The notes under the pieces were generated by a model. That model saw only the letters and a list, made by a program, of their open reading frames with translations. It did no database searches and was not told where the DNA came from. A DNA stretch of 64,000 bases, from contig JAAYBX010000006.1 of the NCBI GenBank assembly GCA_012729955.1, forward strand, positions 1 through 64,000, written 5' to 3'. The translations under genes were made by a program, and so were the position numbers. The stretch comes from Clostridiaceae bacterium (GTDB taxonomy: Bacteria; Bacillota; Clostridia; DUPQ01). Of this stretch, positions 6,986-31,951 are shown piece after piece; the first letter of the stretch is position 1, and the number at the start of each line of letters is the position of its first letter.

Positions 6986-7759
6986 ATGGGAAAAGTAATG
7001 GCCATTGCCAATCAAAAGGGCGGAGTAGGCAAGACAACTACATCTATAAATTTAAGTGCAAGTCTTGCACATATTGGGAAAAAGACGCTTCTTATTGATA
7101 ATGATCCGCAGGGTAATGCGACAAGCGGACTTGGAGTAGATAAATGGACCGTGGAAAAATCTGTCTATGATACATTAATAAACGATATTGATATAAAAGA
7201 CACTATACTTCCTACAATGATGGATAACTTATTCATATGTCCTTCGAATATACAATTAGCAGGAGCAGAAATAGAACTGGTAAGCCAGATGATGCGCGAA
7301 AACAGATTAAAGAATGCTATTGAGACAATAAAAAAAGATTATGATTACATAGTAATAGACTGTCCTCCTTCATTGGGTCTGCTTACTCTGAACTCACTAA
7401 CTGCAGCAGATACAATCTTAGTTCCTATACAATGCGAATATTATGCTCTTGAGGGTTTAAAACAGCTAATGAAGACGGTTTCTTTGGTTCAAAAGCATTT
7501 AAATCCTTCATTAAAAGTTGAAGGCGTTGTTATGACTATGTATGACTCAAGAACAAATCTTTCATTTCAGGTAGTAGAGAGCGTAAGGGAACACTTTTCT
7601 GACAGGGTATATAGAACGATAATACCACGAAATGTAAGGCTCAGTGAGGCACCAAGCCATGGAGTTCCAATCATTCTATATGATAAGGACTCAAGAGGAG
7701 CGATAAGTTATTTAGAATTAGCAGAAGAAGTTATACAGTGCGGAGGAAGAAATGGCTAA
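6986..7759 (+). CDS. parA: Chromosome-partitioning ATPase ParA/Soj
   Basis: ParA/Soj is a Walker-type ATPase that dimerises on DNA and moves ParB-parS complexes; in B. subtilis Soj also regulates DnaA. The 257-residue protein has the deviant Walker A motif KGGVGKTTT at about residues 11-19, IDNDPQGNATSGLG and the switch motif VIDCPPSLG. The short N-terminus, with no extra helix-turn-helix domain, marks it as chromosomal Soj type rather than plasmid ParA. The ATG at 6986 follows GAGGT. The 3' end overlaps parB by eight bases, so the pair is translationally coupled. Confidence 0.96.
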   Translation: MGKVMAIANQKGGVGKTTTSINLSASLAHIGKKTLLIDNDPQGNATSGLGVDKWTVEKSVYDTLINDIDIKDTILPTMMDNLFICPSNIQLAGAEIELVSQMMRENRLKNAIETIKKDYDYIVIDCPPSLGLLTLNSLTAADTILVPIQCEYYALEGLKQLMKTVSLVQKHLNPSLKVEGVVMTMYDSRTNLSFQVVESVREHFSDRVYRTIIPRNVRLSEAPSHGVPIILYDKDSRGAISYLELAEEVIQCGGRNG

Positions 7760-18682: not shown

Positions 18683-20053
18683 ATGGAACATACTATAGCA
18701 GCAATTTCCACACCTGTTGGGGTTGGAGGAATATCAGTAATCAGGATTAGCGGCAGTAACGCTTTTTCGGTTGCCAAAAGTATGTTTAAATCAAAGACTC
18801 CTTTTGAAAGTATAAAAAGCCACACAGTAACATATGGTACTGTACAAGATGAAAAAGGCAACACGCTTGATCACGTGCTGCTTCTTAAAATGCAAGCGCC
18901 AAAAACCTATACAGGAGAAGATACTGTGGAAATCCACTGTCATGGCGGTATATATGTGACTAAAAAAATACTTGCTATGGCTTATGCTAACGGAGCTCAT
19001 CCTGCACAACCAGGCGAATTCACAAAAAGAGCATTCGTAAACGGCCACATTGATCTTATGGAAGCTGAAGCAGTTATGGACCTTATTAACAGTGAAGCAG
19101 AAGATACATACAAAGAAGCACTGTCTCAAATGAAGGGCGAAAAGAGTTTACAGATTAAAGGTATAAGAAGCGAGCTAATCGATCTCATTTCACACATCAT
19201 GGTTATGATGGATTACCCAGAATATGATGTTGAGAAGATAACTGCAAAAGATACAAAGGAGAAAGCAGAAGAAATAGCAAAGAGACTTAGGATACTTATT
19301 GAGGACTTTGATAACAGAAGAATAATACGGGAAGGATTAAATGTTGCTGTTGTCGGGGATGTAAATGTCGGGAAATCCACATTTATAAATAGAGCATGCG
19401 GCCAGAATCGTGTTATTGTTACAGATATTGCCGGAACAACAAGGGATGTAGTAGAAGTAAAGATAGATATAAAAGGATTATGCGTTATATTAAAAGACAC
19501 CGCGGGCATTCGCAGTACAGATAATGAAATAGAAAAGATAGGCATAGAGAAATCCAAAGAGGCAATAGAGGAATCGGATGCAGTCATCTATATAGCAGAT
19601 ATAAACAGACCATACAAAGATGAGATATTCAATTATATAAAAGATATGAATAAGGCCATATGCGTACTAAACAAGACAGATCTTCTATTGGAAAATGAAA
19701 GGGATAAGCATATTAAATTTATGGAAAGAGACCTGAAAAAAATATTCAAAGATAGAATAATAGCTTGTTCTTTAGATAAAAAAGAAGGGATTAACGAAAT
19801 TTTTGATAAATTACTGGATATGGTTAATGCAGGGAGTATCCGACAGAAAGATTCTGTTATAACAAACGAAAGGCACAAAAAACATATAGCCGATGCTATT
19901 AAATATTTGGAAAACACAAAAGAAGGATCTTTTATAGATATGCTTAGTGTTGACTTAACCTGCGCTGCAGAGGAACTAGGCAAAATAACAGGAGAAACCG
20001 CAAGTGCAGATATTGTGGACAGGATTTTTGAAAAATTCTGCATAGGTAAATAG
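18683..20053 (+). CDS. mnmE: tRNA modification GTPase MnmE (TrmE)
   Basis: MnmE works with MnmG to add the carboxymethylaminomethyl group at wobble uridine 34. The 456-residue protein begins [21 protein letters not shown]. It has the formyl-THF-binding domain with the HGG motif, a G1 P-loop GDVNVGKST near 227, the G2 [14 protein letters not shown], the G4 NKTD, and the C-terminal FCIGK whose cysteine is catalytically important. Length and ending are complete. mnmG starts one base after the stop. Confidence 0.97.
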
Positions 20054-20054
20054 A

Positions 20055-21935
20055 ATGAAGGAATATGATGTTATTGTTGTCGGGGCAGGCCATGCAGGGT
20101 GTGAAGCTGCTCTTGCATCTGCAAGAATGGGATTGAAGACAGCTGTTTTTACTTTAAATCTTGACAGTATAGCCAACATGCCATGCAATCCAAGCATAGG
20201 CGGGACGGCTAAAGGGCACCTGGTAAGGGAAATTGATGCTTTAGGCGGTCAGATGGGAAAGTGTGCTGATGCGACCCTTATACAGTCAAAAATGCTTAAC
20301 AGGTCCAGTGGACCGGCAGTTTATTCTCTTAGAGCACAAATAGATAGAAGACAGTATCAGATTATGATGAAGCATACACTTGAAACACAGACTAATCTTG
20401 ATATTCGACAGTATGAAGTAACCGATGTTATTTTTAGTGATGAGAATAAAGTTATTGGAGTCATTACAAACACTAATGCGAAATTTTCTGCAAAAGCTGT
20501 AATAATAGCAACCGGAACATACCTTAAAGCCCGTATTATTATTGGGGATACATCATATGAAGGCGGACCTGACGGGTTATTCCCTGCTAATAAACTTTCA
20601 CTGAACCTTGAACAAAAAGGAATTAAATTAAGAAGATTTAAAACAGGAACACCTGCAAGGGTTCATAAGGACAGTATAGATTTTACGAAGATGTCTGCTC
20701 AGAACGGGGATGAACCTATTGTGCCTTTTTCATTTGAAACAGATAAAATTGTTATAGACCAGATACCTTGTTATCTGACATACACTAATAAGAATACCCA
20801 TGATATTATAAGAAGAAACCTGGACAGATCACCTTTGTACAGCGGAAAGATAAGCGGGACAGGGGTAAGATACTGCCCATCAATAGAGGACAAAATAGTT
20901 AAATTTGCAGACAAAGAAAGACATCAGGTCTTTATTGAACCAATGGGACTGATGACCGATGAGATGTATGTTCAGGGCATGTCCAGTTCAATGCCGGAAG
21001 ATGTGCAGGAAGAAATGTACAAATCAATAGAAGGTCTGGAGAATGTTGTTTTCATGAGAAGCGCTTATGCAATTGAATATGACTGTTTTGACCCTTTGCA
21101 GCTTTTACATACATTGGAATTTAAGAATTTCCATGGGCTTTACTCTGCAGGACAGAGCAATGGAAGCAGCGGTTATGAAGAAGCTGCTGCACAGGGAATA
21201 ATGGCAGGGATAAATGCTGCCTTAAAGATTAAAAATTCACATGCACTAGTACTAGACAGATCACAAGCATATATTGGAGTACTCATTGATGACCTTGTTA
21301 CAAAAGGAACTAATGAACCATACAGGATGATGACCAGCAGGTCTGAATACCGTCTTATACTAAGACAAGATAATGCAGATGAAAGGCTCACTCCAAAAGG
21401 TTATGAAATAGGCCTTATAAACCAGGAAAGATATACAAAGTTCCTGTTAAAAATGGATAATATAGAAAAGGAAATAGAGAGATTAAAAAGAAAAAATGTT
21501 TCTCCTAAAATAGCAAATCCGTTTTTTGAAAAAAGGAACCAGCAGACGATTAATTCCGGAATCACTGAAGCAGCTATTCTGAAGCGAGAAGGCATCAGTT
21601 ACAAAGACCTGTACGAAATTGATGACCAGATTCCTGATATAGCAATAGAGGAGAAAGAGGAAGCGGAGATAAAGATAAAATATGAAGGATATATAGAAAA
21701 ACAGCTCAAGCAGGTAGAGCAGTTTAAAAAGATGGAGAAGATTCTGCTTCCCGGATATATAGACTTCAAGAAAATTACAGGACTGAGAAATGAAGCTAAA
21801 CAGAAACTTGATAACATAAAACCAATTTCATTAGGCATGGCAGGAAGAATATCAGGAGTATCTCCAGCAGATATACAGGTGCTTTATGTTTATATCGAAC
21901 AGCAGAAGCGAAAGAAAAAGGAGATAGAGGAATGA
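20055..21935 (+). CDS. mnmG: tRNA uridine-5-carboxymethylaminomethyl modification enzyme MnmG (GidA)
   Basis: MnmG is the FAD-dependent partner of MnmE. The 626-residue protein begins with the FAD motif [18 protein letters not shown] and has the family signatures [27 protein letters not shown], and later [16 protein letters not shown]. The C-terminal GidA-associated helical domain is present and includes [18 protein letters not shown]. Length is normal (about 620-630). The end overlaps rsmG by four bases. Confidence 0.97.
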
Positions 21936-22630
21936 AGGAACTGCTTAAAGGCATTTATGATGAGCTGGAAATAAAATATGATGAGGAGCAATACGAAAAA
22001 TTCAATACATATGCGACTCTTCTTATTGAATGGAATAAGAAGTTTAATCTTACAGGAATAACGGATTTAAAGGATATTTACATAAAGCATTTTGGGGACA
22101 GCCTTATGCTTTTTAAAGGAACAGAAGGGACTAGATCACTAATTGATGTAGGAACTGGCGCAGGTTTTCCAGGTATACCTTTAAAGATTGCAGGATATAT
22201 TCATAAAATAGTTTTGCTTGAAGCAAATGGCAAAAAAGTTTCTTTTTTAGAGCATGTAATAAAATCACTGGATTTAGATCAGATATTTATATGTCAGGAC
22301 CGGGCGGAGATTGCAGGAAGAGAGGATATATACAGAGAAAGATTTGATATCGCAACAGCAAGGGCTGTTGCACCATTAAATGTTCTATTGGAATACTGTG
22401 TTCCTTTTATAAAAAAAGATGGTTATTTTATTGCCATGAAAACCGATAACTCCGAACTGGAATCAGCAAAAAATGCCATGAAACAGCTTTCTGTAGAGGT
22501 AAGTAAATCAGATATGCAGACTATTCCTTTTTCCGATATAAAAAGATGCAACATATTTTTTAGAAAGAAAAGAAATACTCTTGATAAATACCCCAGATCA
22601 GACGGTATGCCAAAAAAGAAACCTTTATAG
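21932..22630 (+). CDS. rsmG: 16S rRNA (guanine527-N7)-methyltransferase RsmG (GidB)
   Basis: The 232-residue SAM-dependent enzyme methylates G527 of 16S rRNA; its loss gives low-level streptomycin resistance in other bacteria. Features are [11 protein letters not shown], the SAM motif [15 protein letters not shown] near residue 70, a [17 protein letters not shown] motif near 135, and a terminal basic PKKKPL. It is the last gene of the rpmH block, followed by a strong terminator. parAB, which often follows rsmG, is instead after gyrB here. Confidence 0.95.
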
Positions 22631-22727: not shown

Positions 22728-22752
22728 GAAAGACCTAGTCTTTCTTTTTTTT
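22728..22752. terminator. Bidirectional terminator between rsmG and the GT26 gene
   Basis: GAAAGAC (22728-22734) pairs with GTCTTTC (22738-22744) around a three-base loop, followed by eight T residues on the plus strand. A run of A residues upstream (22721-22725) provides a U tract on the minus strand. The stop codon of the convergent glycosyltransferase gene is exactly the loop triplet. Confidence 0.9.
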
Positions 22753-23463
22753 GAACAACATATGCTGTTTGCACTTTAAAAGGAATAAAGGGATGTTAAG
22801 CATTCTTCGAAACCTTTTAGGCTGCTTAATAAGCCTGTAGAACCATTCAAGCTTATATTTGCAGAAAAATTCCGGTGCTCTTTTCGCAAATCCTGAAATA
22901 ATATCAATAGTTCCGCCTGCTCCGATAGCGAGACCAGAGCGTATGTCCTTACTGTGTCTGTATATGAAAAGCTCCTGCTTCGGAGCACCTAAACCTATAA
23001 TAATAAGATCAGGTTTTTTTATATTAATATCATCAATTATTTCTTTTTCCTGATTTTCGCTAAAAAAACCATCGTGAAAACCAGATATGGATATATTAGG
23101 ATAATGAGATAGAATATTTTGAGCTGCAGTGCTGACAGAATCATAAGATGCACCAAGAAGATAAACAGAAAAGTTTTTACCTATACCTAAAAGATTTTGT
23201 ACAAACACGCATCCAGGTACCTTTTCTTTTAAAGGAGCCTTTAATATTTTAGAAGCAAGAACAACTCCTTCACCATCAGGAATATTCATAAAAGAGGAGT
23301 TTAATGCTTCCATAAGGTTATTGTTCTTAATAGCAGCCATACAAATTTCTGCATTGGGAGTAAAAATATACTTAAAAGATTTGTTATCACATAAAGCCGC
23401 ATATGCTTTTGATAATGCATTATCCATATCAATATCGTCAATTCTTATACCTAAAATATCCAT
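22735..23463 (-). CDS. WecG/TagA/CpsF family glycosyltransferase (GT26)
   Basis: The 242-residue protein matches GT26 enzymes such as TagA (UDP-ManNAc transferase to lipid-linked GlcNAc) and WecG. Motifs are TPNAEICMAA, PDGEGVV, VYLLGAS, DLIIIGLGAPKQE, GAGGTIDIISGFAKRAPE and LEWFYRLIKQPKRFRR. The basic C-terminus fits membrane association. I chose the ATG at 23463, which has GGAG just upstream. A start 48 bases earlier adds residues not typical of the family. It likely takes part in building the lipid-linked repeat of the neighbouring polysaccharide, or a wall polymer. The sugar donor is not certain. Confidence 0.9.
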   Translation of the reverse strand: MDILGIRIDDIDMDNALSKAYAALCDNKSFKYIFTPNAEICMAAIKNNNLMEALNSSFMNIPDGEGVVLASKILKAPLKEKVPGCVFVQNLLGIGKNFSVYLLGASYDSVSTAAQNILSHYPNISISGFHDGFFSENQEKEIIDDINIKKPDLIIIGLGAPKQELFIYRHSKDIRSGLAIGAGGTIDIISGFAKRAPEFFCKYKLEWFYRLIKQPKRFRRMLNIPLFLLKCKQHMLFKKKKD

Positions 23464-23519
23464 AGCGTCTCCAATACTTTGAAGTATAGGCAAAAACAAA
23501 TGGAAAATCAATAAAAAGG

Positions 23520-23561: not shown

Positions 23562-24719
23562 ATGAGGAAAACCGGGGCTATAAAACTAATTATCATAATA
23601 TTATTAATGTCAGCAGTACTTGTTTCATGCACAGAAGAAGAGTACCGTGCTTCAAGGCTGTATAAATCTTTGACTTCATATGAGCAAAAAGGTGAAACAG
23701 TTGCATTAAAGAACAAAAAATACAATAAAATTGATTTATCCAAAAAAGCCATATTGGAAATTTCCAAAGGACAGATTTACAATGCTGACTTCAATGAAGC
23801 TGTCAATATTAAAGGCGCTTCAACTGCTTCTATTCTTAATTCAGAAATAATATCCAAAACACTTGCTGTAAGGGCAGCTGAAAAGGATACAGTTGTAAAT
23901 GTAATATCTACTAATATCGCATCATATGGCGATTATGTCATAAGTGTTACAGATAATGCCGTATTTACAGGTTCCAGTCTGAATGTTGCTAACTTAGGGG
24001 ATACCGGAGCAGCAATTCAAGTTACTTCAAGAGCATCTTTGGTATTAAACAATTCGAATGTGAATGCAAAAGGCGCTGGCGTGGAGTCAGATTCGTTAGT
24101 GAGTATAAGTTCAAGTGAGATGACAGTAGAAAGCTTGAAATTTTATGAAGGAGCAGCAGTTACTTTAGATGATTCAAGGTTCTATACCCTTCATGGGATA
24201 ATGCTTTTAGACAATTCGAATGAAAATCTTATTCATGTCTCGCTTAATCTTAAGAAAACAAAACTGACTGCTGATAATGGCGCATTAGTATCCATGATAG
24301 ATACAAAAGCTTCCATTAAGCTTGAAGATACAACAATAAGCCAGAATGAATATAATGTCATATCATTAAAGAATTCAGATGTAACAGTTACCTTATGTAA
24401 ATCCAATGTTGAAGGCAGTATAATTGCTGATGACAGTTCCTCCCTAAATATACTTATAAAAGACGGATCAACTTTTAAAGGATATATTAACAGGGATAAC
24501 AAAGCAAAAACAGTTACAGTCCAGATAGAAGAAAACAGCATATGGGAAGTTACATCAGACAGTTATGTCAGAGGTATAATCTTAAAAGACAGAGATTTAA
24601 GCGGAATAAAATCAAATGGATTTACAATTTTCTACGACACAAAATGTGTAACTAATTCATGGATGGAAAAGTCGACAATTAATCTGCCAGATGGAGGGAA
24701 GCTGGTTCCTTTAAAATAG
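23562..24719 (+). CDS. Secreted lipoprotein with predicted beta-helix body
   Basis: The 385-residue protein has a lipoprotein signal peptide with lipobox LVSC (Cys23), then a body rich in short repeats alternating beta-forming and Asn/Ser/Asp turn residues (NSNVNA, NSDVTV, DSSSLNI). This is typical of right-handed parallel beta-helix folds such as pectate-lyase-like and adhesin proteins. I recognise no catalytic signature and assign no enzyme activity. It lies inside the polysaccharide locus, convergent with the CpsB gene and divergent from the GT26 gene, so a surface or polysaccharide-binding role is possible (inference). The ATG lacks a clear ribosome-binding site. Confidence 0.75.
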   Translation: MRKTGAIKLIIIILLMSAVLVSCTEEEYRASRLYKSLTSYEQKGETVALKNKKYNKIDLSKKAILEISKGQIYNADFNEAVNIKGASTASILNSEIISKTLAVRAAEKDTVVNVISTNIASYGDYVISVTDNAVFTGSSLNVANLGDTGAAIQVTSRASLVLNNSNVNAKGAGVESDSLVSISSSEMTVESLKFYEGAAVTLDDSRFYTLHGIMLLDNSNENLIHVSLNLKKTKLTADNGALVSMIDTKASIKLEDTTISQNEYNVISLKNSDVTVTLCKSNVEGSIIADDSSSLNILIKDGSTFKGYINRDNKAKTVTVQIEENSIWEVTSDSYVRGIILKDRDLSGIKSNGFTIFYDTKCVTNSWMEKSTINLPDGGKLVPLK

Positions 24720-24727
24720 GGATTTAG

Positions 24728-25396
24728 TTATATTAATAGTTTTCCTGCATTATCCATAAACCTGTTAAAGTTAGAGCCAAGAATAAAATGGCTCTTTTTT
24801 AAAGCTCTGTAAGTAATCAGGTAATTATATATATGAGTATCACTCGCTATGAAAGTTACCATTGATTCTCTTATATATTTACGAATCCTCCATCCAAGAA
24901 CAGGAGCGAAAAGAGAATATGCATTAACCTGAGCGAGAACGTCGAGAGCCATAAGTTTTTGCACCTGTCTTGGATTGTATCTTTCCAAATGAGCGATTAT
25001 CACATTAAGGCCTAAAGACTGCAGATTTACGATCTCATTTAACAGCATATTACTCCAAACAGAAGAAGGCATTTCAATGAGTATGTAATTAGTATTTTCT
25101 ATTGCAAGCTTACGGATTTTTCTATGTCTGCTTAGTCCTGTTGTAAGCCGTACTTCTGCTCCCCTATAAAGTTTTACGCCAGTGTCATTTACATCAGATA
25201 ATTCGTAATAAGCTTTATCCCTTCTTGAAATGAATCGGTCTATGCTGTCATTGAAGGGATAAAAATGAGGAGTGCAGACTATAGAGGACACTCCAAATTT
25301 TTTTGCTGTTTTTAGTTGTTTCAAAGAATCTTCCAAACTGGAAGATCCATGATCTGCTCTTGGTAATATGTGGCAGTGTATATCAATCATTGTCAA
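24728..25396 (-). CDS. Tyrosine-protein phosphatase CpsB/YwqE/CapC (PHP fold)
   Basis: The 222-residue manganese-dependent PHP-type phosphatase has DIHCHILPRADHGS at the N-terminus, TPHFYP near 42, a GAEVR motif, IIAHLERY near 133 and a final ASDTH near 185. These are the metal-binding residues of the CpsB family. It removes phosphate from the tyrosine tail of the partner kinase encoded just upstream. The genes overlap by 14 bases, so translation is coupled. The protein is slightly shorter than the roughly 245-255 residues usual for CpsB, but no key motif is missing. Confidence 0.93.
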   Translation of the reverse strand: MTMIDIHCHILPRADHGSSSLEDSLKQLKTAKKFGVSSIVCTPHFYPFNDSIDRFISRRDKAYYELSDVNDTGVKLYRGAEVRLTTGLSRHRKIRKLAIENTNYILIEMPSSVWSNMLLNEIVNLQSLGLNVIIAHLERYNPRQVQKLMALDVLAQVNAYSLFAPVLGWRIRKYIRESMVTFIASDTHIYNYLITYRALKKSHFILGSNFNRFMDNAGKLLI

Positions 25397-26150
25397 GATT
25401 TACAGGTGATGTCTGTTTGACTGGTTTTTTATCATATCCTCCGTATCTTTCATACTTCGCATATTTATACCCGTTTTTCCCGTATCTGTATGGTTTGTTA
25501 TATGACATAGTTTCTATATCATAATCGTTGAATATGAACCCTAACAGTTTACCGTTTACGTTGTTCAGAGCATCGACTGCATCCTTTATTAGATTTGTAC
25601 GGGAGAAATTCTGTCTGACTGCTAGAACTGTGCCTGTTACCTTGTTTGATATGGCGATAGCGTCTGTGACAATCAGTACTGGAGGTGTATCAATAAAGAT
25701 ATAATCCAAGGTTTCACGTAATTCGTTTAGAAGTAAAGTCATTCTCTCGGAAGTCAGAAGTTCTGATGGATTTGGAGGAATAGTACCGCTGGGCAGCACA
25801 TGGAGATTCTTGTATTTTGTAGGATAAATGAAATTTTCCTTTACAAGACCACCAAGAATATCACTAAGGCCTGGAGAGGATTTAATTTTGAAATATTTAT
25901 TTATTGTAGGTTTACGCATATCAGCATCAATAATCAATGTCTTAAATCCTGCTTCAGCAAAAGCCAGAGCCATATTCGCACAAACAGTGGATTTTCCTTC
26001 GCCCATATGGGAACTAGTAAATGAAATAACTGGGCATTTGTCCTTCGCGGTCGTAAACATCAAGTTAGTTCTGGCAGCTTTAATCGCTTCTGCCACAGGA
26101 AACGAACTGTTATCAAAAAGAAGATACTCACGCTTTTGCAGGTCTGTCAT
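25383..26150 (-). CDS. Bacterial tyrosine kinase CpsD/CapB/YwqD
   Basis: The 255-residue BY-kinase has Walker A SHMGEGKST near residue 48, Walker A' LIIDADMRKP, Walker B YIFIDTPPV, and a C-terminal tyrosine cluster with about nine tyrosines in the last 40 residues (for example PYRYGKNGYKYAKYERY). The cluster is the autophosphorylation tail. It is activated by the membrane adaptor encoded upstream (Wzz domain) and dephosphorylated by CpsB. I chose the ATG at 26150, preceded by AGGAGGG, instead of one at 26225. It starts inside the 3' end of the adaptor gene, the usual Firmicutes split arrangement. Confidence 0.94.
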   Translation of the reverse strand: MTDLQKREYLLFDNSSFPVAEAIKAARTNLMFTTAKDKCPVISFTSSHMGEGKSTVCANMALAFAEAGFKTLIIDADMRKPTINKYFKIKSSPGLSDILGGLVKENFIYPTKYKNLHVLPSGTIPPNPSELLTSERMTLLLNELRETLDYIFIDTPPVLIVTDAIAISNKVTGTVLAVRQNFSRTNLIKDAVDALNNVNGKLLGFIFNDYDIETMSYNKPYRYGKNGYKYAKYERYGGYDKKPVKQTSPVNLDND

Positions 26151-26850
26151 ATGATTTTCCCTCCTTTTCATCATGCTGATATAGTTGAAGATCTGGAATG
26201 TACCCGATAATTGGTGCTTTGACAATTCTCAACAGGTTCTCTTCAGATCTTACTTTAGTATTAAATAACTCATATAGTATAACAAATGCGACTGCGGCGA
26301 TAAATCCCAGAACAGTACCAATAGCGACATTTTTAATCATGCTCGGAGAGGAAGGATTCGATGGTACAACAGCCCTGTCTAATATTTCTACAGCACCTGC
26401 TTTTATAACTCTCAGTATTTCATCAGGTGCTACATCTATGAATGCATTTGCAATAATCATAGCATCTACAGGATCTTCACTTGTAATGGTAATCCTCATA
26501 ACCTCAGTGTTATTAACTGAAGTCCCTGAAAACATCTTTCGGATTTGTATAGGCGTATAATCCAAATCTGTTGTTTCAATTACTTTGCTAATGACATTAT
26601 CGCTTTGCATTATAACTGAATAAGTAGCGATAAGCTTTTGAGATGTCGTAATATCTGTTGTGGAAATCGATGTGTCTGTTCTGTTTGAATCATTAAAAAC
26701 ATATAATGTTGCTGATGCTTCATACTGAGGCGTGATGAAAAAATATGTTATTGTCACAGATAGACTTGCTGCAACCAGCACGATGCAGACTATCAGCCAG
26801 AAATGCCGTCTCAGATAAGAGAATATTTGCCGTATATCAAGCTCCTCCAT
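26128..26850 (-). CDS. Wzz/CpsC-type chain-length regulator and kinase adaptor
   Basis: The 240-residue membrane protein has two transmembrane segments (about 17-38 and 170-192) flanking an extracytoplasmic Wzz domain, and ends in a short cytoplasmic tail (PIIGYIPDL region). The PSNPSSPS proline motif before the second membrane segment is typical of the family. It activates the BY-kinase and influences chain length of exported polysaccharide. It is the first gene of a three-gene minus-strand operon (adaptor, kinase, phosphatase). Confidence 0.93.
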   Translation of the reverse strand: MEELDIRQIFSYLRRHFWLIVCIVLVAASLSVTITYFFITPQYEASATLYVFNDSNRTDTSISTTDITTSQKLIATYSVIMQSDNVISKVIETTDLDYTPIQIRKMFSGTSVNNTEVMRITITSEDPVDAMIIANAFIDVAPDEILRVIKAGAVEILDRAVVPSNPSSPSMIKNVAIGTVLGFIAAVAFVILYELFNTKVRSEENLLRIVKAPIIGYIPDLQLYQHDEKEGKSYDRPAKA

Positions 26851-26894: not shown

Positions 26895-26923
26895 ATAATA
26901 AGGTATCATATTTTACTTGTCAA
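26895..26923 (-). promoter_or_regulatory. Promoter of the Wzz-kinase-phosphatase operon
   Basis: On the minus strand, consensus TTGACA (complement of 26918-26923) and TATTAT (complement of 26895-26900) are 17 bases apart, about 45 bases upstream of the adaptor gene. The operon thus has its own promoter and need not depend on the gene further upstream. Confidence 0.8.
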
Positions 26924-26959: not shown

Positions 26960-28147
26960 CTATTCGACAACAATAGCGCCATATACAGCGATATTATTGT
27001 TTTTACATATTTCTAAAAGCTTTTCTATTTTTCTGATCTGCGACAACTTGTATTTTTCCACAAGTATAATACCTTTACAATCAAGAAGGGATTTTGCAAT
27101 ATCAGCAGAATCAAAAATATTACTTAACTGCCTTAAGTCATAATCTGTATTTTCCTTAAGGTATTTACTGACTGTGTTTAAAGATTCAAGATTTTCGGAG
27201 CTAGTTATTCCAATGGGGCCTATTGTTTTTCCACATGCATATATGACAGGCACTAATGCTTCTTGGGAAATCCTATTAATATCAGTTCCGCTCGAAAAAA
27301 GATTCAGTTTAGGCAGCTGCTCAATACCTATCAGTTTACGGCTTAGATAAAATCTTCCAAGAATGAGCACATATGCAAGAAATACTCCTAATATAAGCCC
27401 AAGTACCGAATACTGAATAGCTTCTTTGTTAAAAGGCTCATATGTGACTTTGTCTATTAGAGATTGCTTCTCCGTTATCTGTTTATCAATTTCACTAATA
27501 GATTTTTCCAGGGCTGCATATTCCGTGTTATATGCTTTCTGCATATTGGTTAAAGAGGTATTTGCAGACAGAGATTCTCTTTCGGATATTAGCATTATAA
27601 TGCTGGAACCTAAAGTGGAACTTACGGTGTTCTTTGCTCTCTCAAAGCATTTTTCTGCTATACTCTTTAATACACTCAGATTATCTTTATCTTGCCCATA
27701 TACATGTAATGTTAAAGTCCGGTATTCTGTGCTTGCAGTGAAATCAATAAAAATGTCAACTATATCAAGAGGAAGGGATAAATTATTCTCTTCATGTATA
27801 TCCGCAAGAAGGTTTATATCATTTATTACAGTATTATATAAAGCCACATTTTTTTCTATATAATATACAGCTGTGTATTTCTGTAGAGAAGCAGAATCGA
27901 TACCTTTTATGTAAATATACTTTTTGTCACCATCAAAATCAGACTTTTCTGTTAAAAAATTATTCTTTTGCGAATTCAGAGAATCTATCTCTGACTGTAA
28001 AGCCTCAATATTCGTCTTTTCTTCATTGTATTTTGTATAATCAGTAAGGATTTTAACAGCTCCTGCTAAAACTGCGCAACATAAAACAACAACAATAATT
28101 AATTTGATGTTCTTTCGTGAATATTTTATAAGCGTGGATAAGTCCAT
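26960..28147 (-). CDS. Second Wzz-domain protein with long coiled coil and degenerate kinase-like domain
   Basis: The 395-residue protein has two membrane segments (about 16-37 and 245-266) flanking a long charged helical region rich in heptad patterns, the layout of large Wzz/PCP and GumC-type proteins. The final 130 residues resemble a BY-kinase fold. A strand IGITSSENLESLN stands where SS..GEGKST is expected. A loop with NIFDSADIAKSLLDCKGIILVEKYKLS follows, then IAVYGAIVVE. Walker A, Walker A' and the tyrosine tail are missing, so it should be inactive as a kinase. I chose the ATG at 28147 because GGAGGAG precedes it; an ATG at 28171 has none. A regulatory or scaffold role is inferred. Confidence 0.78.
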   Translation of the reverse strand: MDLSTLIKYSRKNIKLIIVVVLCCAVLAGAVKILTDYTKYNEEKTNIEALQSEIDSLNSQKNNFLTEKSDFDGDKKYIYIKGIDSASLQKYTAVYYIEKNVALYNTVINDINLLADIHEENNLSLPLDIVDIFIDFTASTEYRTLTLHVYGQDKDNLSVLKSIAEKCFERAKNTVSSTLGSSIIMLISERESLSANTSLTNMQKAYNTEYAALEKSISEIDKQITEKQSLIDKVTYEPFNKEAIQYSVLGLILGVFLAYVLILGRFYLSRKLIGIEQLPKLNLFSSGTDINRISQEALVPVIYACGKTIGPIGITSSENLESLNTVSKYLKENTDYDLRQLSNIFDSADIAKSLLDCKGIILVEKYKLSQIRKIEKLLEICKNNNIAVYGAIVVE

Positions 28148-28332
28148 ATCTCCTCCCAGAAGAAAATACATAATGTTTTATATCAGCAGAAAAATTATAT
28201 CACTATTAATTGAGTAAAGCCAGTAAAACTGAAGTTTTATCTTAACCATATATATAATGTATCGAGCCTGGTCCGAAAACAGGACACCTTGAAAAGTGGA
28301 AAAGGGTTTAAGCATGTTGGCATCATATATGA

Positions 28333-28390: not shown

Positions 28391-29998
28391 ATGAGCAATA
28401 AGAAAACGAAGAAAAACGTTGAAGAACCGAAGTCAAAGAAAAATCTTATAAAGGATTTTTTCTATCTGGAGCAGGATAAGAAAAAGTTATCATATTTTGA
28501 AATTGTCACAACAGCATTCCTCTATGTGTTCTTATCCAGCTTCGCGCTGATAGTAAGCGGTAATGTGTATGGGGATATGACAGAAACAAAACTATATACA
28601 TTAATAGCAATGTTTGGAATATGGTTAGTTTTAATGTGTTTTGGCTTATTCGAAAAGATACGTGTAAAAAAGGCAGATGCAGTATATTTCAAACAAACTC
28701 TTAAGAATCTCTCAGTTACAGATATAGCTCTTATTTCGTACATGCTTATTGCCTTTATATCTGCAATACTTTCTGAATACAGGCATACTGCGTTTATGGG
28801 TGTTGAAGCAAGAAATGAAGGATTCTTCATGCAGATGATGTATGTTTCCATATTCTTTATGATATCCAGGACATATGTGCATAAGCTGGAACTGAAGATA
28901 TTCGCACTAGCAAGCATACCGGTTGCTTTATTGGGGATTCTTCAGATTAATGGTTATTATGTCGGAAGACTAACATACAATATATTAACGCAGGGAAAGA
29001 GTTTCCTGACTACATTGGGTAATATCGATGTTGTTTCAACATATCTTGTTACACCCATAATGATATTCACTGTTTTGTATTGCCAGTCAAAAGAGAAATT
29101 TTTCAGGCTGCTATATCTGGCAGCAGCAGGAATCTGTTTCTATTTTTCTATACTGATTGGTGTAGACAGCGGATATGTCGGAATGGCTGCGGCATTAGTC
29201 TTTATGTTCCCGTTTATTGCTAAGGACAGATTGTCGGCAGCAAGAATGTTCCAAATGATTTCGCTTTTTCTGTTTTTGGTATACCTTGAAGACCAGGTTT
29301 CCAGAATTGGCACAAGGAACTTCATATTTTTTGAAAAACCATTTAGTGATATAATTTTCTTAGGGGTAATAGTCGCTCTTGGTATTTCAGCTGTTATATA
29401 TTTTGCAGGTAAGTTTATAAAAATTGAAAAGAAATTTATATGGCCTGCCGCTTACTATCTTGTTGCTGCTATAGCTGCATATATTGTCATAAAGAAAATA
29501 CTTGTGATGGCAGAACCTTCTGATTCATCAGTAAAACTTGTACTTTACCAGTTCGGTCAGATATTAAAAGGTAATCTGCAGGACGAATTCGGTTCTAACA
29601 GAATCTATTCATGGAGAGTTGTATATGGGTTTTTTAAGGAAAAACCGATTATAGGTCATGGTCCGGATACCGTTTTTGATTTATGGATGAGAAAAGAGCA
29701 TATATACAGTATGGCAAAATACAATACATATTTCGACAAAGCGCATAATGACTATCTCCAGGTGCTGGTTACGACAGGAATACTCGGTCTGATTTCCTAT
29801 CTTACTTTCCAGTTTTCTCTGCTGATACGGTCTTTTAAAAAATTCGACCAGCCTTTGGTTATAGCTCTGGTGACAGCAAGCATATGCTTCTGTGCGCAGG
29901 CATTCTTTAATATAGGGGTTCCTATCGTATCACCATATGGCTGGATAATATTCGGTATGCTTGCATCAGTGTTAAGGAAAAAAGAAGAAAATGCCTGA
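28391..29998 (+). CDS. O-antigen ligase/polymerase family membrane protein (Wzy/WaaL)
   Basis: A 535-residue polytopic protein with about twelve membrane segments after a basic cytoplasmic N-terminus. The large loop near residues 420-465 carries the Wzy_C signature: GHGPDTVFDLW, then FDKAHNDYLQVLVTTGILGLISY. Such proteins polymerise or ligate undecaprenyl-linked glycans. In this Gram-positive setting polymerase, or ligase to a wall or lipid acceptor, are both possible. GGGAAG precedes the ATG. The following dehydratase gene lies 27 bases downstream and is probably co-transcribed. No flippase (Wzx) is in the window. Confidence 0.87.
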   Translation: MSNKKTKKNVEEPKSKKNLIKDFFYLEQDKKKLSYFEIVTTAFLYVFLSSFALIVSGNVYGDMTETKLYTLIAMFGIWLVLMCFGLFEKIRVKKADAVYFKQTLKNLSVTDIALISYMLIAFISAILSEYRHTAFMGVEARNEGFFMQMMYVSIFFMISRTYVHKLELKIFALASIPVALLGILQINGYYVGRLTYNILTQGKSFLTTLGNIDVVSTYLVTPIMIFTVLYCQSKEKFFRLLYLAAAGICFYFSILIGVDSGYVGMAAALVFMFPFIAKDRLSAARMFQMISLFLFLVYLEDQVSRIGTRNFIFFEKPFSDIIFLGVIVALGISAVIYFAGKFIKIEKKFIWPAAYYLVAAIAAYIVIKKILVMAEPSDSSVKLVLYQFGQILKGNLQDEFGSNRIYSWRVVYGFFKEKPIIGHGPDTVFDLWMRKEHIYSMAKYNTYFDKAHNDYLQVLVTTGILGLISYLTFQFSLLIRSFKKFDQPLVIALVTASICFCAQAFFNIGVPIVSPYGWIIFGMLASVLRKKEENA

Positions 29999-30025: not shown

Positions 30026-31951
30026 GTGGTAAAAACAGTAAAAGACAATAGTTTATTAATAAAGAAAATATTGCTCGTAATTATTGATACAGTAGCGATA
30101 AATGCAGCTACATTTCTGGCTCTGTTTTTCAGGTATGAACTGAGTTTTTCAAAAATAGAAGTTCAATATATTGAGTATGCTCAGCAGTACTTGTGGGCGG
30201 ACACGATTTTTACCCTCATAATTTTCGCAATATTCGGCTTATATAGAGGATTGTGGAAATATGCTTCGATAAAGGAACTGTTTAATATAATAATCGCATG
30301 TGCTATATCATATGGATTTAAATTTTTGGTAACATCTTTGATTGGAATAAGCCAACCGCGCAGCACAGTTTTCTTCGGAGGTATTTTACTTATAATAATG
30401 GTTTTCGTGACCAGATTCAGTTACAGGTTCCTAAGATATGTCATTAATGAAAGCATAAGAGGGAAAGGCATAAAGAGAGTAATGGTCATAGGTGCAGGTG
30501 ATGCCGGCAATATGATTATCAGGGAGATTAAATCCAGCGGTAATCTGAAATCTAAAGTAGTTTGTGTAATTGATGATAATAGAAATGTTCATGGACTGTA
30601 CATTCAAGGCGTTAAAATAATCGGAGGCCGTGATCAGATACTTGCCTCAGCAAAGAAGCTAAAAGTAGATGAGATAATAATCGCTATACCATCTGTTTCT
30701 TCACAGGAAAGAAAGAAAATATTAGATATATGTAAGGAAACACAATGCACGCTTCGTACGATTCCTGGTATGTATCAGATTATTAATAATGAAGTAAAAT
30801 TGTCTGATCTTCGGGAAGTACAGATAGAAGATTTATTAGGAAGAGATGCTATTGATATAAATGTTCAAGAAATACTCGATTATGTAAGCGGAAAGGTAAT
30901 ACTGATTACAGGAGCGGGCGGTTCCATAGGAAGCGAGCTCTGCAGACAGATAGCAAGCCATAATCCTGCCAAGCTTGTAATGCTGGATATTTATGAGAAC
31001 AGCATATATGATATACAACTTGAAATTACCAGAAAATATCCCAAAATGGATATTGAAGTTCTCATCGCAAGCATCAGAGATGAAAAAAGAATAAAAAGCA
31101 TAATGAGTAAATATACTCCTTCAATAATATTCCATGCAGCAGCACATAAACATGTTCCTTTAATGGAGGCAAGCCCTAACGAAGCTGTAAAGAATAATGT
31201 CTTCGGAACACTTACATTGGTTAAAGCAGCGGATGAAAGCTCTGTTGATAAGTTTATAATGATATCCACAGATAAAGCAGTAAGGCCTACTAATATCATG
31301 GGAGCAACCAAAAGAATATGCGAAATGATTATTCAGGCATATGATAAAAAATCAAAAACAGATTTTGTGGCAGTCAGATTCGGTAATGTCTTAGGTTCTA
31401 ACGGTTCGGTTATTCCCATTTTTAAGAAACAGATTGAAGAAGGCGGACCTGTGACAGTCACACATAAGGAAATCACAAGATATTTCATGACCATACCTGA
31501 AGCAGTATCTCTCGTCCTACAGGCTGGATACTATGCGAAAGGCGGGGAAATATTCATACTTGACATGGGGGAACCAGTAAAGATATATGACCTGGCCAAA
31601 AATATGATAAAGTTATCCGGTCGTACTCCTGATGTAGATATAAAAATAGAAGTAACCGGATTAAGGCCAGGAGAGAAGTTATATGAAGAGCTTCTTATGG
31701 ACGAAGAAGGAATAGAAAAAACACAAAACGACTTGATATACATAGGTCATCCGATAAAGTTTGACGAAAAAATATTTTTTGAAAATTTAAAACAGCTTAA
31801 GAAAATGACTGAAGACGAAGTAACCTGTATGAAACTTCTCATAGCTAAAATGATTCCGACATATATCCCTGAAGGGACAGATATAACAGATGATAAAGAA
31901 GTTAAAGAATGCATGACACAGCTTTTTGCTCAGGATAATCAGGTTAAGTAG
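30026..31951 (+). CDS. Membrane UDP-sugar 4,6-dehydratase (CapD/FlaA1/PglF type)
   Basis: The 641-residue protein has four N-terminal membrane segments (about 10-130), a first Rossmann domain with VIGAGDAGNMIIREI near 152, then a short-chain dehydrogenase domain with TGAGGSIGSELCRQI near 295 and STDKAVRPTNIMGATKR near 412. This is the long, membrane-anchored form of UDP-GlcNAc 4,6-dehydratase, which makes the 4-keto-6-deoxy intermediate for amino-deoxy sugars such as bacillosamine or QuiNAc derivatives. Translation starts at GTG 30026 after GGGGGAG. The aminotransferase and acetyltransferase that would complete a sugar are not adjacent. Confidence 0.9.
   Translation: MVKTVKDNSLLIKKILLVIIDTVAINAATFLALFFRYELSFSKIEVQYIEYAQQYLWADTIFTLIIFAIFGLYRGLWKYASIKELFNIIIACAISYGFKFLVTSLIGISQPRSTVFFGGILLIIMVFVTRFSYRFLRYVINESIRGKGIKRVMVIGAGDAGNMIIREIKSSGNLKSKVVCVIDDNRNVHGLYIQGVKIIGGRDQILASAKKLKVDEIIIAIPSVSSQERKKILDICKETQCTLRTIPGMYQIINNEVKLSDLREVQIEDLLGRDAIDINVQEILDYVSGKVILITGAGGSIGSELCRQIASHNPAKLVMLDIYENSIYDIQLEITRKYPKMDIEVLIASIRDEKRIKSIMSKYTPSIIFHAAAHKHVPLMEASPNEAVKNNVFGTLTLVKAADESSVDKFIMISTDKAVRPTNIMGATKRICEMIIQAYDKKSKTDFVAVRFGNVLGSNGSVIPIFKKQIEEGGPVTVTHKEITRYFMTIPEAVSLVLQAGYYAKGGEIFILDMGEPVKIYDLAKNMIKLSGRTPDVDIKIEVTGLRPGEKLYEELLMDEEGIEKTQNDLIYIGHPIKFDEKIFFENLKQLKKMTEDEVTCMKLLIAKMIPTYIPEGTDITDDKEVKECMTQLFAQDNQVK

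Follow-up and report, generated by a model that had tools for sequence, protein, structure and literature searches.

Co-polymerases fused to a kinase-dead domain are already known in proteobacteria. As described in PMC4182512, PssP2 of Rhizobium leguminosarum is a Wzz-type co-polymerase fused to a kinase-like domain reported to lack Walker A, A', and B motifs and the tyrosine cluster (Y-cluster), yet it affects EPS chain length and makes two-hybrid contact with the polymerase PssT. Further fused kinase-dead examples named in PMC12004946 are SMc01795, BCETI_6000729, Mlr8439, and VV1_2305. According to the same source, co-polymerase rings whose BY-kinases are active are thought to cycle through phosphorylation-driven disassembly, and EcpK is proposed to be a scaffold for EpsV in Myxococcus xanthus. 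In EcpK/EpsV and in HfsB/HfsA of Caulobacter, a BY-kinase fold without catalytic motifs is proposed there to serve the co-polymerase free of phosphorylation (PMC12004946). What we add to the proteobacterial examples is a clostridial family.

The clostridial protein resembles PssP2, as that protein is described, both in its fused architecture with a motif-less kinase-like domain and in having a second co-polymerase in the same cell (PssP in R. leguminosarum). It differs in that PssP2 is proteobacterial and has an AAA domain that Pfam can still detect (residues 409–557), whereas no library sees the domain here; PssP2 is also described as encoded apart from the main EPS cluster (PMC4182512), whereas the clostridial gene adjoins an adaptor-kinase-phosphatase module. 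The EcpK and HfsB pseudokinases are presented as separate proteins (PMC12004946), whereas the clostridial domain is fused. With CapA-CapB of Staphylococcus aureus (PDB 2ved, 3bfv, 4jlv, 4jmp) and Wzc of E. coli/Klebsiella-type capsule systems it shares the fold and the order of elements, including the CapA tail. These proteins possess a nucleotide pocket and a tyrosine tail, whereas the clostridial domain is shorter by roughly 80 residues and lacks the motifs.

The window, that is, the whole stretch of DNA analysed, comprises 64,000 nucleotides from a Clostridiaceae bacterium (contig JAAYBX010000006.1). The features of its polysaccharide locus are as follows.

26960–28147, minus strand: Wzz-like co-polymerase with a degenerate BY-kinase domain, as judged from the ORF list and homologues (395 aa)
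28040–28108, minus strand: predicted first membrane helix, about residues 14–36 (hydrophobic stretch inside predicted helix H14–73)
27350–27421, minus strand: predicted second membrane helix, about residues 243–266 (hydrophobic stretch inside predicted helix H240–272)
26963–27340, minus strand: degenerate BY-kinase domain with CapA-like tail, about residues 270–395, as judged from profiles, fold, and motif absence
28194–28202, minus strand: TGATATAAT, extended -10-like site upstream of the gene (same nine bases in 5/5 genus copies)
26895–26923, minus strand: TTGACA-17-TATTAT, promoter-like, between the gene and the adaptor (11/12 consensus; hexamers and spacing kept in 5/5 genus copies)
26128–26850, minus strand: CapA/CpsC-type adaptor, an ordinary PCP-2b (TIGR01006 E 6.8e-45, at 153 bits under the model cut-off of 296; Pfam Wzz E 4.9e-18)
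25383–26225, minus strand: CpsD-type BY-kinase whose P-loop and tyrosine tail are intact (TIGR01007 E 1.9e-55, above the model cut-off; start uncertain, either TTG at 26225 or an inner ATG at 26150)
24728–25396, minus strand: CpsB/CapC-type PHP phosphatase (PF19567 E 2e-34)
22735–23511, minus strand: WecG/TagA/CpsF-type glycosyltransferase (PF03808 E 2.8e-52)
28391–29998, plus strand: divergent Wzy/O-antigen-ligase-type gene, likely the pathway polymerase or ligase (PF04932 E 8.5e-17)
30026–31951, plus strand: CapD-like sugar dehydratase/epimerase (PF02719 E 5e-125)

The gene for the 395-residue protein ends with a stop codon at 26960–26962, and an alternative start at an upstream ATG (28171) would give 403 aa. 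The segments quoted in the initial annotation are all present in this ORF: ITSS (residues 314–317), CKGIILVEKYKLS (357–369), and VYGAIVVE (388–395). The adaptor, kinase, and phosphatase lie directly downstream on the same strand, and the complete split adaptor-kinase pair said to adjoin the gene was borne out by its TIGR01006 and TIGR01007 matches, with the CpsB/CapC-type phosphatase in addition. Overall, the promoter scan gave no excess (14 promoter-like sites against 17.2 in shuffles), so the two sites listed rest on their conservation and place; on this sequence evidence, the gene and the kinase module each have their own conserved promoter-like site in the genus.

Other genes in the window were also inspected. 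A lipoprotein-like gene in the polysaccharide locus (23562–24719, plus strand), with a signal and a lipobox-like VSC recognised by eye, is kept in the genus copies and had no Pfam match above cut-off. The genes at 18683–22630 (plus strand), before the locus, read like what we take to be mnmE, mnmG, and rsmG; the locus thus seems to lie beside the usual origin-side tRNA-modification cluster, and the same gene order with the locus was seen at three other loci (L008–L010). The sole other window match to the BY-kinase profile is at 6986–7756 (plus strand; E 4e-18, motif GVGKT), presumably a ParA/Soj-like ATPase.

When the single 395-residue protein was used as query, Pfam, NCBIfam, and PHROGs returned no match above cut-off, and phmmer against PDB sequences gave E-values of only 0.8 and 1.1. 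The Pfam Wzz match (E 0.057) scored 14.2 bits, below the curated cut-off of 25.5, and the label 'Wzz' is weak for this sequence taken singly; across the family, Pfam Wzz matched 18 of 56 members at E <= 0.1 (best 5.2e-6). The predicted structure has the PCP topology, with two membrane helices flanking a large extracellular alpha-helical domain and a short cytoplasmic N-terminus. Residues 11–260 were modelled by AlphaFold mostly at pLDDT of about 73–95. The window adaptor matches the family profile at 7e-11, which indicates that the two co-polymerases of the window are relatives. Foldseek with the extracellular half of the first model gave KpsE as the best match, at a low TM of 0.24. KpsE is a PCP-3, from ABC-transporter capsule systems, and PCP-2a proteins carry the co-polymerase part and the kinase part in one chain; KpsE rather than Wzc as the top fold counts against a PCP-2a-like reading.

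Relatives were collected by iterated profile searches. Within the window's genus, five copies of the gene were found in four genomes, counting the window's own; relative to the window protein, the remaining four copies show 53–94% identity. Among named genomes, the nearest is the MAG Firmicutes bacterium ADurb.Bin146. One MAG (G003) has two copies of the whole locus (L008 and L009; protein identity 94% and 78%), which may represent two binned strains, as its listed contamination is 6%. The profile of the genus copies led to longer relatives in other clostridial families, and iteration gave a full-length alignment of 56 rows (A5) and a domain-only alignment of 51 rows (A6). A5 omits two loci (L095, L096) contained in an alignment of 36 rows (A3), A6 omits five divergent rows of A5 (L120, L121, L123, L124, L126), and three fetched loci (L099, L101, L129) were unused. 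With a profile of 11 rows, 57 of the 200 genomes in one family (f27, perhaps Lachnospiraceae) had a match at E <= 1e-5, part of these matches being short, in ORFs of about 260 aa that are probably ordinary adaptors. In the order of f27, 45 of 392 genomes had an A3 match at 1e-10; in the class, 16 of 371 had an A5 match at 1e-20, and the window's genus accounts for four of these. In the window's own family, the seven remaining genomes had no A5 match at 1e-20, and profile A1 gave one match (E 0.085 over 37 residues). At three loci (L155, L156, L164), two family members lie close together, one of them in an ORF of 931 aa (L156, 10662–13454). By sequence, the protein belongs to an unannotated clostridial family spanning several taxonomic families. 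Open PMC papers yielded no account of this family, no relevant clostridial or Lachnospiraceae case, and nothing on such a gene paired with a complete split kinase module.

The C-terminal domain was compared with BY-kinases by profile and by fold. Searched against PDB sequences, A6 ranked four CapA-CapB chimeras highest (E 1.8e-6 to 1.7e-5), ahead of PslE (0.0048 and 0.011) and then, from 0.055 on, unrelated chains; A5 placed PslE at the top (1.4e-5), CapA-CapB second, and Wzc third. Profile-profile comparison with 24 clostridial BY-kinases gave 91.5% (E 8.4e-7, over the last 46 columns) for the domain and 74.4% (E 2.7e-5) for the whole of A3. The C-terminal part of A3 scored 42.4 against the BY-kinases, whereas none of 30 column-shuffled controls exceeded 23.2 and the reversed profile reached 17.2, so the likeness exceeds chance.

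A first AlphaFold job with five genus sequences left the C-terminal domain unmodelled (pLDDT 27–52), whereas the deeper A6 alignment resolved residues 262–395 with a pLDDT of 76 and a pTM of 0.70. With this predicted domain, ranks 1–26 in Foldseek were all Wzc chains (best E 2.1e-4, query TM 0.38–0.73), and ranks 1–18 in VIA-align were all BY-kinases (Z 12.4–8.6), the best other fold being hypoxanthine-guanine phosphoribosyltransferase (Z 7.4). Identity to BY-kinases in the structural matches was about 10–17%, and PslE was absent among the listed fold-search rows of both programs. Sequence and predicted fold agree on the likeness of the C-terminal domain to BY-kinases, and the model has their fold. 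The proposal that the last 130 residues are BY-kinase-like has thus held up, for the last ~125 residues, by profile and in the structure prediction suggested with it, the unrelated fold that would have spoken against it not having appeared.

PslE of Pseudomonas aeruginosa, a solved structure (PDB 9v6l, 9v75) that we compared by sequence only, matched the whole-family profile over residues 383–640 (E 1.4e-5). Like the clostridial domain, its C-terminal part is short, with GEGVT where BY-kinases read GEGKS/T; unlike that domain, it retains a DAP-type remnant in between, and its match to the domain-only profile was weak (E 0.0048). Because its C-terminus aligns to the family and reads GEGVT, PslE looks like another reduced BY-kinase domain, one with a solved structure. 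No paper on that structure was found in open PMC papers.

The nucleotide pocket is missing from the clostridial domain. When the profile is aligned by HMMER to 2ved, a CapA-CapB chimera, positions 5–112 fall on 2ved residues 13–118, to about the Walker A' strand, and a second stretch pairs positions 128–163 with residues 216–251. The gap between them spans 97 residues of 2ved and 15 of the profile, a loss of ~80 residues that includes Walker A' and Walker B and that is an estimate, as the second stretch is not significant alone (3–5 bits). The structural match agrees with a deletion, since 134 residues of the model are spread across Wzc 445–697.

Motifs were counted in 47 family ORFs, defined as matches to the domain profile without a BY-kinase profile match at 1e-10; this rule excluded the stand-alone CpsD kinases of the window and of L008 and no other ORF. 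In the last 190 residues, EGK[ST] (Walker A), a Walker A'-like motif, and D-x-[PA]-P (Walker B) were each found in 0/47, the window protein included, whereas 24 control BY-kinases (alignment A4: the window kinase and 23 of 30 fetched kinase loci) had them in 24/24, 22/24, and 23/24, respectively. The P-loop pattern is gone from the loop behind strand 1. A tripeptide GK[ST] occurs somewhere in the last 190 residues of 10/47 family ORFs. In the window protein, CGKT at residues 305–308 (27224–27235, minus strand; GKT 306–308) precedes strand 1, outside the P-loop position, and is the same in 5/5 genus copies. The family ORFs have 0–2 tyrosines in the last 25 residues, compared with 6–11 in the last 35 residues of six CpsD-type kinases listed, and the 395-residue protein stops at its last predicted strand. 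The initial annotation had described this domain as lacking Walker A, Walker A', and a tyrosine tail, and the counts agree. On sequence and predicted structure, the domain is a BY-kinase fold without catalytic motifs or tyrosine tail, as in the BY pseudokinases (EcpK, HfsB, fused PssP2-type), and the earlier observation of a Wzz-like protein with a kinase-like domain lacking ATP motifs is confirmed at that level.

It had also been proposed that the protein docks with, or competes for, the active kinase CpsD. In such a model the dead domain would act on CpsD or the adaptor, as part of a mixed ring, as a decoy, or as an allosteric subunit, and would damp the phosphorylation cycle or set its threshold. 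A proposal related in PMC3795738 for CapB1 and PtkB is that an inactive BY-kinase interferes with an active one, and the full adaptor-kinase-phosphatase module lies beside all five copies in the window's genus. To see how far this linkage extends, 40 stretches of 13–19.9 kb around relatives outside the genus were fetched, of which 39, in 39 genomes, hold the gene; the fetched coordinates of the remaining one (L143) miss it and it was left out. These genomes were chosen from the stronger profile matches and not at random, and four loci (L131, L150, L157, L164) have less than 6 kb on one side of the gene. A BY-kinase (E <= 1e-10) together with an adaptor and a CpsB homologue was found near the gene at only one of the 39 loci (L161, genome G673), and the other 38 have no linked kinase. 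Homologues of phosphoglycosyltransferase, CapD, TagA, or Wzy (E <= 1e-5) were present at 29 of the 39, with some of the CapD matches being general sugar epimerases; the other ten had no polysaccharide-synthesis marker with the queries used, which counts against the explanation favoured below.

Genome-wide, TIGR01007 matched at E <= 1e-20 in 22 of the 39 genomes, a rate no higher than that in a sample of the class (72/118), and the 17 genomes without a match are all at least 91% complete. These counts indicate that the family is independent of a linked kinase and often of any kinase that TIGR01007 finds. The ring-contact motif E..[RK]..R was found in 22/24 BY-kinases and 0/47 family ORFs, although different stretches were searched in the two sets, and the separate promoter-like sites of gene and kinase module also speak against docking. 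Docking with CpsD, or competition for it, was not upheld as a role of the family in general; the rarity of linkage outside the genus weakened that model, which we consider unlikely. Independence may not hold in the genus and in G673, where the gene lies beside a full kinase module; given the 5/5 pairing, a partnership with CpsD inside the window's genus is possible. There, dead and adaptor-CpsD co-polymerases might share one mixed ring on the same polymerase, and the unphosphorylatable subunits, expressed from their own promoter, might set the threshold of CpsD phosphorylation for disassembly, as a stoichiometric brake; we regard this specific scheme as doubtful.

The separate promoter-like sites, together with the occurrence of relatives at loci without a kinase, could also mean that the two systems are mere neighbours, each with a polymer of its own: one for the 395-residue co-polymerase and one for the adaptor-CpsD module. 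This seems very unlikely to us, as the stretch examined has a single Wzy/ligase-type gene and the whole arrangement is kept in 5/5 genus copies.

The domain has also been conserved. In comparisons of the window gene with the four other genus copies, dN/dS of residues 262–395 and of residues 1–261 was 0.176/0.257, 0.051/0.141, 0.152/0.181, and 0.098/0.282, that is, lower in the domain in 4/4, with dS unsaturated in the first pair only. Residues E364, S369, and G390 (window numbering) are hallmarks of the family, conserved in 46, 40, and 50 of the 51 rows, respectively. These sequence comparisons indicate that the domain is under purifying selection. We therefore hold it highly improbable that the domain is a decaying, functionless leftover or that its likeness to BY-kinases is that of a generic Rossmann-like fold: the low identity and the lack of a library match above cut-off would suit either, but the selection and the hallmarks argue against a remnant, and BY-kinases stood clear of other folds in VIA-align and of unrelated sequences in the PDB profile search.

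A recent duplication of the neighbouring CpsD was set aside as the origin of the gene, which groups inside the family in a FastTree tree; that verdict is weak, as the tree had midpoint rooting, no printed support values, and no CpsD row.

The explanation that we favour, and consider reasonably likely, is a PCP-2a-like co-polymerase whose BY-kinase domain, devoid of nucleotide pocket and tyrosine tail, persists as a small folded platform that would act independently of phosphorylation. It brings together, from sequence and prediction, the Wzz-like topology, the BY-kinase fold, the absence of motifs, the purifying selection, and the rarity of a kinase nearby. By analogy, this membrane protein probably helps to control the chain length of a surface sugar polymer, and the Wzy-type, CapD-type, and TagA-type genes nearby in the window support a polysaccharide role. 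Without a nucleotide site and a tyrosine tail, the domain cannot drive phosphorylation-driven disassembly, and the protein would act without tyrosine phosphorylation. The part of a structural platform is suggested by the scaffold proposal for EcpK/EpsV and the chain-length effect of PssP2: the dead domain, with the CapA-like tail strand in its own sheet, would cap the pair of membrane helices and may hold or tune the co-polymerase oligomer around a Wzy-type polymerase. In the window's genus, the switchable adaptor-CpsD-CpsB module would have this protein next to it as a second co-polymerase that does not depend on phosphorylation.

This family would extend kinase-dead fused co-polymerases from the proteobacterial examples to Clostridia, where it mostly occupies polysaccharide loci that have no kinase linked to them. 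It illustrates the extent to which a BY-kinase domain can shrink and yet stay under selection. Loci in which such a protein does or does not have an active kinase beside it are natural test cases for what the phosphorylation cycle contributes to the control of chain length.
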